From Drouetiella hepatica Uher 2000/2452 (GTDB lineage Bacteria > Cyanobacteriota > Cyanobacteriia > Elainellales > Elainellaceae): 64,000 nucleotides of DNA. Where the stretch lies: positions 124,001 through 188,000 of the forward strand of contig JAHHHD010000001.1 of NCBI GenBank assembly GCA_019359505.1. Direction: 5' to 3'. Each line of letters opens with the position of its first letter. Positions within the stretch are counted from its first letter, which is position 1. The position numbers and the translations under genes are program-made. The notes below the pieces were generated by a model. It was not told where the DNA came from and made no database searches. It worked only from the letters and a program-made list of their open reading frames with translations. Below are positions 25,580 through 27,234 of this stretch, piece after piece.

Positions 25580-26070
25580 AGCGTCAGGAGTAAGGTGTGA
25601 GGAAATCGGGGGAGCGATCGCTCCCCTACAAAAATGAGTTCTGGTTAGATTTATAGCTGCCGCCAGTTTGCTCAGAGGACGTTTGAAAAGTGGTCGGCTG
25701 TGATTTTAAGCACCTGTTGATCCCTCTGCCCCCCTTAAAAAGGGAGAAATGAATTCAAAGTCCCCCTTTTTTCTAGCGCAGCGGCGCGATAGCGCGGGGA
25801 TTGAGGGGGATCTGAAACGTTTCGCTATCCATAGTTGGACTTTTCAATCATTCTCTTAGGACAGGGACATTTAGGGTGGGAGATCTGGAGTTCAGTCTAC
25901 GTAAGCCCTGCATAAAAGTTGAGCCGATCAGCTAAACCGACCTGAGTTAAGCTGATCGGCTTAATCTAATTTAATTCTAATTTTAATTTTCCTGGGATCA
26001 GAGTAAATACAATATACGGGCGACTGAAAGATGTCATTCATCCTGTATTTATTCTGTGAGGAGTACTTTG
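25580..26070. other. Intergenic region with hairpin and repeat debris
   Basis: No gene is seen. A perfect palindrome GGGGAGCGATCGCTCCCC at 25609-25626 follows the SLH gene and may terminate it. A degraded family D end (GCCGCCAGTTTGCTCAGAGG) lies at about 25660. A segment at 25730-25815 contains CCCCCCTTAAAAAGGGAG and TCCCCCTTTTTT, a CCCCCT-type repeat. Another D-like fragment (AGGACAGGGACATTTAGGG) is at 25858. A GAGGAG ribosome-binding site precedes the next ATG. Confidence 0.5.
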
Positions 26071-27234
26071 ATGCTGAGGTTAGGTATTAGACAGGGAGCT
26101 AGAGCATTTCTGGCGCTGGCGACATCGGTGAGTTTACTAATTTTGGGCAGTGGAGCGATCGCCAACGAGAACGCTAGCATGGTCAAGATCTCAAATCTCC
26201 CTCAGATCGTCGCGAACTCTAGCTTTATCAGCCCGCTGGTTGAGCTGTTTGGCGACGTAGGAATCGGTTCACAAAGCTTTATTGCTGGAAATACAGTAGT
26301 TCGAGCCGATCCGGGAACTCAGATTTGCATTGGCAACGAGACAAATTTGCAAGACAACATTTTGTTTTTAGCGTCACAGGAAACGGCTGCTCCTGCGGCT
26401 CCCTGCGGCTCGGTTTCTAGCAGCACTGGCAATAGAGTTAGCATTGCCCACCAAGCTGTGGTCAAAAACTCGCGCATTGGCAACTTTACCTTTGTTGGTT
26501 TCAATGCTCACCTCAATAATGTGGTGCTAGAGGATGGAGCGTTTGTTTTGCACGGTGCCCAGGTGGAAAACGTCACGATTGGCAAAGATAAGCTGGTGCC
26601 CATTGGAGCCGTCATCACGACTCAAGCCGAAGCTGATGCTCTGCCTTCCAAAACACATGACAATGCTGAGTTTCAAGATGAGGTCTTGGAAGTTAACGAA
26701 GAATTTGCTGAGAGCTATGGCAAGCTGTACGATAGCGCTGGCTATGAAGCCGTGACAGGGGTTAGCCGTTCGCCCGTGACTTCCTGGAATGTCACTTCGG
26801 TGAGTCCTAGCTTGGGAGAAAATGTCCAGCTAGGAGAGTTTGTCCGCATTGTGGGAGATGTGCAGCTAGGAAAAGATAGCCGAGTGGGTCAGCGCACCTC
26901 TATTCGGGCCGACGAAGGCTCACCGATCGTGATTGGTGAGAATGCCCGCATTGAAGATCGGGTTACTTTTCATGCGCTGAAAGGAAGCGACATTCGGATT
27001 GGCGAAGATCTGAGAACCGCTGACAATATTGTGTTTCACGGTCCGCTGAAAGTGGGTGACGACTTGAATATTGGGGATGATGCTATCCTCTTCAGATCTA
27101 CGGTGGGCAATAATGTCTCCATTGGTACTAGGGCGATCGTGGTTGGAGTCACTCTGCGCGACGGGACTCAAGTTCCGCCCAATGCCCACATCATTACTCA
27201 AGAACTGGCAGATAAACTTGAGGTTGTGCAGTAA
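26071..27234 (+). CDS. Secreted tandem gamma-carbonic-anhydrase-like protein
   Basis: 387 residues from the ATG at 26071, nine bases after GAGGAG; a GTG at 26056 is less likely. A signal peptide (about 1-31) is followed by two left-handed beta-helix domains (about 45-225 and 245-385). Each has the Cam/CcmM hexapeptide pattern and an RAD segment. Domain 1 even keeps the Cam tail ITTQAEADALP. Compared with the Cam zinc ligands His81/His117/His122 as I recall them, domain 1 has Leu100/His127/Lys132. Domain 2 has His301/Asp318/His323. Neither domain has a full set, but together they do. Proton-shuttle Glu62 is Pro in domain 1 and Glu282 in domain 2. Bicarbonate chemistry outside the cytoplasm is plausible but not proven. 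Confidence 0.8.
   Translation: MLRLGIRQGARAFLALATSVSLLILGSGAIANENASMVKISNLPQIVANSSFISPLVELFGDVGIGSQSFIAGNTVVRADPGTQICIGNETNLQDNILFLASQETAAPAAPCGSVSSSTGNRVSIAHQAVVKNSRIGNFTFVGFNAHLNNVVLEDGAFVLHGAQVENVTIGKDKLVPIGAVITTQAEADALPSKTHDNAEFQDEVLEVNEEFAESYGKLYDSAGYEAVTGVSRSPVTSWNVTSVSPSLGENVQLGEFVRIVGDVQLGKDSRVGQRTSIRADEGSPIVIGENARIEDRVTFHALKGSDIRIGEDLRTADNIVFHGPLKVGDDLNIGDDAILFRSTVGNNVSIGTRAIVVGVTLRDGTQVPPNAHIITQELADKLEVVQ

Follow-up and report, generated by a model that had tools for sequence, protein, structure and literature searches.

A tandem gamma-carbonic anhydrase homologue of Drouetiella hepatica and its relatives, with metal-ligand equivalents divided between two domains

In Cam, the gamma-carbonic anhydrase (gamma-CA) of Methanosarcina thermophila (1thj), one subunit supplies His81 and His122 while its neighbour supplies His117, according to PMC4519908. 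What becomes of such a site when two gamma-CA domains lie on one chain? This question is raised by a gene in a 64,000-nt stretch of the Drouetiella hepatica Uher 2000/2452 genome (hereafter the window); the gene and its parts given below are on the plus strand. The gene (26071..27234) encodes 387 amino acids plus a stop; its ATG at 26071, with an AGGAG ribosome-binding site (26059..26063) 7 nt 5' of it, and the stop codon ending at 27234 agree with the coordinates in a preliminary description of the window. A GTG at 26056 is an unlikely start because it lies upstream of the AGGAG. Residues 1–31 (26071..26163) form a probable signal peptide of the Sec type, called by eye and not by a predictor from the basic start, the hydrophobic stretch and AIA/N; AIA is also present in the sequences of several relatives. 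The protein is probably exported, and two invariant cysteines of the first domain, C86 (26326..26328; 28/28) and C112 (26404..26406; 29/29), which may form a disulfide, fit export.

The protein contains two hexapeptide-repeat domains (Pfam PF00132 scores 68.2 bits, its cut-off being 27). This match and the phmmer E-values of 1.7e-30 to CcmM and 1.6e-25 to Cam place it, by sequence, among the left-handed beta-helices of the gamma-class Cam/CcmM superfamily. Domain 1 (D1, the candidate donor half; residues 36–216, 26176..26718) has a CcmM/Cam-like beta-helix followed by a C-terminal helix, and its residues 47–216 align with residues 42–212 of the N-terminal gamma-CA domain of CcmM (3kwc), its best PDB match, the C-terminal helix included. 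A linker (residues 217–228, 26719..26754), delimited by alignment, leads from this helix to the N-terminal segment of domain 2 (D2, the candidate acceptor half; residues 229–387, 26755..27231), which has a short loop and no C-terminal helix. The nearest PDB relative of residues 229–384 is Cam, matched in two overlapping pieces, as expected if D2 does not have Cam's acidic loop. In the alignment, the Cam-type acidic loop with Glu84 was found in neither D1 nor D2; the loop in D2 is a short HALKG, and that in D1 is different and cysteine-bearing. On these sequence matches D1 and D2 are classed as Cam/CcmM-type beta-helix domains. The scores against the NCBIfam models for Cam (NF040597, 174.2 bits) and CcmM (NF053794, 178 bits) were under the curated cut-offs of 380 and 550, respectively. 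An hhalign comparison of the two domain alignments was rejected as evidence of D1–D2 likeness, as the same CcmM row occurs in both. AlphaFold2 models had mean pLDDT values of 49.0 for the whole protein and 48.4 for the mature part, with 11 alignment rows each, and were not used for geometry.

MAFFT was used to align the window protein, the domains of its relatives, Cam and CcmM. The alignment bore out every ligand position previously read by eye: the equivalents of Cam His81, His117 and His122 are L100, H127 and K132 in D1, and H301, D318 and H323 in D2. Three His ligands were found in neither domain sequence; D1 has one of the three and D2 two, and the domains together have all three. The proton-shuttle glutamate had been described as retained in D2 only. 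This is correct for the Glu62 equivalent (E282); Cam, however, has two such glutamates, Glu62 and Glu84, which act in proton transfer according to a passage of PMC4519908, and the Glu84 equivalent is gone from both domains, being Q103 in D1 and K304 in D2.

Conservation was then counted over 30 rows from 29 non-redundant proteins, namely that of the window and 28 others, of which those measured share 55.7–72.3% identity with it; an incomplete copy was left out of the count at each column that it does not cover. In D1, His127 (26449..26451), the counterpart of the donated ligand, is present in 29/29. N92, Q94 and D95 (Cam N73, Q75 and D76; 26344..26355) are each present in 28/28 and belong to the donor side, N92 presumably so, and N209 in the C-terminal helix (Cam N202; 26695..26697) is likewise found in 28/28. 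The position of Glu62 is occupied by P81 (26311..26313; 28/28), that of His81 by L100 (26368..26370; Leu in 20, Ile in 5, Val in 2 and Ala in 1) and that of His122 by K132 (26464..26466; Lys in 15, Glu in 9, Arg in 3 and Val in 2). Two other acceptor positions of D1 are partly kept: R78 in 23/28 (Ser in 5) and D80 in 20/28 (Glu in 8).

The pattern in D2 is the complement. R279, D281 and E282 (Cam R59, D61 and E62; 26905..26916), His301 (26971..26973) and His323 (27037..27039) are each present in 28/28, and W239 in 27/28. At the position of His117, Asp318 (27022..27024) is found in 27/28, with Asn in locus L037. Among the remaining donor positions, 293 is variable, E295 (27/28) replaces Gln75, D296 is found in 27/28, and the helix carrying Asn202 is absent. 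His never occurs at position 100, 132 or 318 among the 29 non-redundant proteins. Close homologues, that of Deinococcus deserti included, thus keep the split pattern, on which the original proposal had been made to depend. Between them, D1 and D2 carry equivalents of R59, D61, E62, N73, Q75, D76, H81, H117, H122 and N202, with no exception in the counted rows. Since the R59 and D61 equivalents on the acceptor side of D1 and the D76 equivalent on the donor side of D2 are largely kept, the split comprises the ligands, E62, Q75, N73 and the terminal elements, and not everything.

His161 in D1 (VLHGA; 26551–26553) was also invariant, in 11/11 rows of the first alignment. By eye, the hexapeptide register places it on the donor face, two coils above His127, where Cam has Pro; a role in proton transfer or as a ligand of a second metal is possible.

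We further asked whether the residues sort by side of the subunit interface. A passage of PMC8000050 describes gamma-CA trimer interfaces in which one chain contributes R45, D47, V48, H66, H89 and N-terminal residues, and the next chain Q60, D61, H84 and the C-terminal helix; it also reports an R45–D61 salt bridge and, in the Thermus thermophilus protein, hydrogen bonds between the N-terminus of one chain and the C-terminus of the next. By spacing and alignment, the listed residues correspond to Cam R59, D61, E62, H81 and H122 on the one side and Q75, D76 and H117 on the other. Asn73, Gln75 and Asn202 of Cam form a hydrogen-bond network (passage in PMC4519908); we infer the sides of Asn73 and Asn202 from the place of the former two residues before Gln75 and of the latter in the C-terminal helix. 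Set against the interface residues given in that passage, D1 keeps the donor-side active-site residues and the C-terminal helix and has lost most acceptor-side active-site residues, whereas D2 keeps the acceptor-side active-site residues and the N-terminal segment and has lost most of the donor side, including the helix. The R59–D76 salt bridge of Cam would correspond to R279–D95, both conserved in 28/28. The conserved split and this sorting of active-site residues, C-terminal helix and N-terminal segment by side support the view, put forward in the preliminary description, that the domains are donor and acceptor halves.

Conservation was also compared over the wider interface (positions numbered 119, 122, 136 and 138 were left out of the conservation, Fisher and hydropathy sets). 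At acceptor-side positions the mean entropy was 1.01 in D1 versus 0.17 in D2 (p = 0.0009, or 0.018 once catalytic positions are removed). The greater conservation of the D1 donor side over the D1 acceptor side fell short of significance (p = 0.053, or 0.24 once catalytic positions are removed), and the acceptor and donor sides of D2 did not differ in conservation (p = 0.34); an earlier, smaller row set gave p = 0.10 and 0.36 for these two comparisons. Fisher tests of the split gave 0.008 for each domain when scored strictly; scoring partly kept residues as kept changed this to 0.17 (D1) and 0.048 (D2). These tests are purely descriptive, the positions having been picked after the pattern was seen.

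The chemistry of the faces was also compared. Mean hydropathy at non-catalytic acceptor positions was 2.21 in D2 (Cam, 1.68; CcmM 3kwc, 2.05) and 1.08 in D1; at non-catalytic donor positions it was 0.34 in D1 (CcmM, 0.08) and -1.94 in D2 (Cam, -1.52). The interface positions in the coil above the ligands are F144, 147, 149, D336, D337, I/V339 and F341. Hydrophobic interface residues are kept at F144 on the D1 donor face (29/29) and at I/V339 and F341 on the D2 acceptor face, and positions 147 and 149 of the D1 acceptor face are mostly polar. The former donor face of D2 is 52% acidic at six non-catalytic positions, at which Cam has no acidic residue. The acidic residues of this face (26836–27081) are E256 (25/28) and, in 27–28/28, E295, D296, D318, D336 and D337, the last two (27076..27081) being present in 28/28 and 27/28, respectively. 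Such a face could bind a cation or a partner.

These data point to a reading in which D1 would act as the donor subunit, supplying His127 as third metal ligand together with Gln94, Asp95 and, from the C-terminal helix, Asn209. D2 would act as the acceptor subunit, binding the metal through His301 and His323 and contributing Arg279, Asp281, Glu282 and its TSWN segment at the N-terminus. Packed like neighbouring Cam subunits, the halves would together make a single site for Zn, Fe or Co, which could convert CO2 to bicarbonate and back, either in the periplasm or on the cell surface. We regard one composite metal site made by D1 and D2 as likely. Its formation within one chain would be the simplest geometry: the 12-residue linker joins the D1 C-terminal helix to the D2 N-terminal segment, elements that touch in ordinary trimers, so the site is probably intramolecular, although we set the chance of this at about even. 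As linker position and interface chemistry both favour an in-chain site, the homo-oligomer envisaged in the preliminary description would probably not be needed.

The closest precedent for a single surviving site, as far as passages of PMC7567890 and PMC7447434 describe it, is the gamma-CA/CAL heterotrimer of plant mitochondrial complex I, in which subunits have lost some ligands and one complete metal site is left; the sole remaining site of this asymmetric trimer holds a metal, which we count for the composite site. That assembly differs in consisting of three separate chains on complex I, of the CamH subclass and without fusion. Several observations count against the composite site: the Glu84 equivalent is absent, a ring of three subunits is not filled by two domains, the split is incomplete (R78 and D80 in D1; D296 in 27/28 in D2), the conservation contrasts between the two sides of D1 and of D2 fall short of significance, and the mean hydropathy of the D1 acceptor face is still positive (1.08).

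The composite site might instead be formed in trans by D1 and D2 of different chains, arranged as a mixed ring or as a chain-linked polymer. Gamma-CAs are normally trimers, a chain with two domains leaves one of three ring positions vacant, and the residue pattern alone cannot tell cis from trans. However, the linker spans from the donor C-terminus to the acceptor N-terminus, which touch in related trimers, so that a cis site needs no long crossing, and the faces that would close a ring are acidic in D2 or partly polar and variable in D1. We consider the trans arrangement, which is included in our estimate for the composite site, unlikely.

Two readings dispense with a site shared by the halves, and we judge both improbable, to the same degree and slightly more so than the trans arrangement. 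Asp can bind metal. D318, acidic in 27/28 at the position of the third ligand, could therefore be a ligand and allow a D2–D2 site; D2 would then form a homotrimer with a modified 2-His-1-Asp site (H301, H323 and D318), and D1 a separate homotrimer serving as an inert structural part. Against this, D318 is Asn in locus L037 (one draft genome) while H301 and H323 remain, D2 is without the C-terminal helix that is part of the donor side in related trimers, and D336 and D337 replace ordinary interface residues on its donor face; nor would separate homotrimers explain why D1 keeps all five donor-side residues. The fold may otherwise have been reused as a non-catalytic scaffold or bicarbonate-binding protein, its residues being kept for binding or folding. 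The absence of Glu84 and the acidic loop would suit this, as would the reports, in passages of PMC13249358 and PMC7447434, respectively, that CcmM of Synechocystis PCC 6803 and S. elongatus is without CA activity and that some CamH proteins show none. A scaffold, however, would not need the ten active-site equivalents, from R59 to N202, that are present without exception across D1 and D2.

If the composite site is correct, the protein could be described as a gamma-CA freed from the homotrimer, with a donor and an acceptor beta-helix on one chain, a single internal site and a location outside the cytoplasm, and maybe a new role for the acidic D2 face. We hold this full picture tentatively, at a little under an even chance, and the new role of the freed face (cation, wall or partner binding) is a guess.

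Compared with known systems, the protein shares with Cam the beta-helix, the equivalents of R59, D61, E62, H81 and H122 in D2 and those of N73, Q75, D76, H117 and N202 in D1. Cam has one domain per chain, three sites in a homotrimer and a long acidic loop with Glu84, whereas here two domains share a chain, the halves are divided, and the loop and Glu84 are gone. CcmM is a cytosolic, carboxysomal protein fused to RbcS-like repeats; the window protein is without these repeats, begins with a probable signal peptide and has its ligand positions split across D1 and D2. A putative signal peptide is also mentioned for Cam in a passage of the review PMC5746736, which describes Cam as active only as a trimer. 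A literature search within an open-licence library gave no paper whose title or abstract opening describes a gamma-CA of tandem or split-ligand type. CcaA and CcmM are the carboxysomal CAs named in a 2026 review of how cyanobacteria concentrate CO2, and its matched passages contain no mention of an exported gamma-CA (PMC13249358). The split-ligand tandem protein would represent a variant form of gamma-CA. A natural chain with donor and acceptor halves apart and fixed would let each half-site be mutated on its own and might serve as a single-chain enzyme for engineering. It points to an exported gamma-CA in cyanobacteria, and would show clearly how the two copies of a tandemly repeated subunit can lose complementary parts of an active site that lies between subunits.

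We next surveyed relatives of the gene. They occur in 11 loci of the genome contig collection, one with a frameshift. Full-length or split copies are present in 5 of 60 related whole genomes, own genome included; 14 of the 60 passed the 1e-20 threshold, those beyond the five being single-domain matches. A phylum-wide draw gave relatives in 5/386 genomes and the own order in 4/36, both including the own genome. The orders of genomes G355, G234 and G059 gave 15/388 (among them a split copy in G063 and a truncated copy in G590), 3/42 and 3/3, respectively; these whole-genome draws overlap. The distribution in cyanobacteria is patchy. Searches of the phage collection and two scans of the viral contig collection found no relative. 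Among the best 10 of 607 records matched in the plasmid collection, the only full-length close match was on plasmid 3 of D. deserti VCD115 (WP_012694801.1; 58% identical), which has the identical split and whose record bears only the database name 'carbonate dehydratase'.

In a tree of 16 of the proteins cut into domains, all D1 sequences formed one clade (100/96) and all D2 sequences another (100/100), so one fusion is enough to account for them. All copies may stem from that fusion, and the 29 proteins are therefore not 29 independent tests. The D. deserti domains branch within those of cyanobacteria, with support that is not strong (89/78 and 93/72); this placement suggests transfer from cyanobacteria into Deinococcus. 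D2 neighbours Cam (92/83), a deeper order made uncertain by the tree program's long-branch warning.

A comparison of 13 loci showed that most neighbouring genes are not shared. In L033, L034 and L047 the stop codon is followed after 9 nt, on the same strand, by the start of a beta-CA gene; in L063 such a gene lies beside the two-domain gene, and in L070 a related gene precedes the truncated copy. The beta-CA proteins of L034 and L033 pass Pfam PF00484 and have, by eye, a Tat-like twin-arginine start. By group code all five loci belong to family f26 (L033 and L034 assigned through identical proteins), and no beta-CA neighbour was found in the available stretches of the other f26 loci (L049, L061, L062 and L064–L068). 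We therefore counted this neighbourhood as one event, in favour of the composite site.

A Fur-family box of the 7-1-7 form is a Zur-type pattern. Upstream of the gene in 19 stretches (L075 and L077 left out), no such box was found at up to 4 mismatches except in L031, which has two overlapping matches at 3 mismatches. In L048 of family f1 and in three loci of family f25 (L046, L075 and L077), the two-domain gene is directly preceded on its own strand by one for a CobW-type GTPase, and the L048 and L046 GTPases score 503.2 and 503.3 against a CobW cut-off of 332.1. A specific zinc role for this neighbour is not supported, as the same two proteins reach 153.2 and 160.6 against a ZigA cut-off of 600. 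Passages of PMC2770081 link COG0523 genes with gamma-CA genes in proteobacterial Zur regulons and describe cyanobacterial cobW as not clustered with B12 genes. A search of the own genome for an alpha-CA gave no match; the genome encodes two beta-CAs, a CamH protein and a CcmM that, by eye, retains all three His.

Some loci showed further features. A frameshift breaks the gene in two genomes (L036, 5119–6200; L025, 1476–2640), through assembly error or decay. Downstream of the truncated copy in L070 lies a transposase-like ORF (by eye), and in D. deserti two annotated genes lie between the gene (L038, 7995–9137) and recA. The L033 contig (1–5688) is labelled as a Tatlockia MAG, a label that looks wrong on sequence grounds. 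Gene order is shared between L033 and the Chlorogloea locus L034. The L033 protein also has exactly the sequence found in G593, a genome assigned to the same class as that of the window and perhaps the very genome from which L033 derives. In the window, a terminator scan gave none on the plus strand at 25922–25961, between an SLH-domain gene and the two-domain gamma-CA gene. An inverted repeat seen there by eye, AGCCGATCAGCT / AGCTGATCGGCT with a 16-base gap and followed by an AT-rich stretch, is possibly the terminator of the upstream SLH-domain gene.
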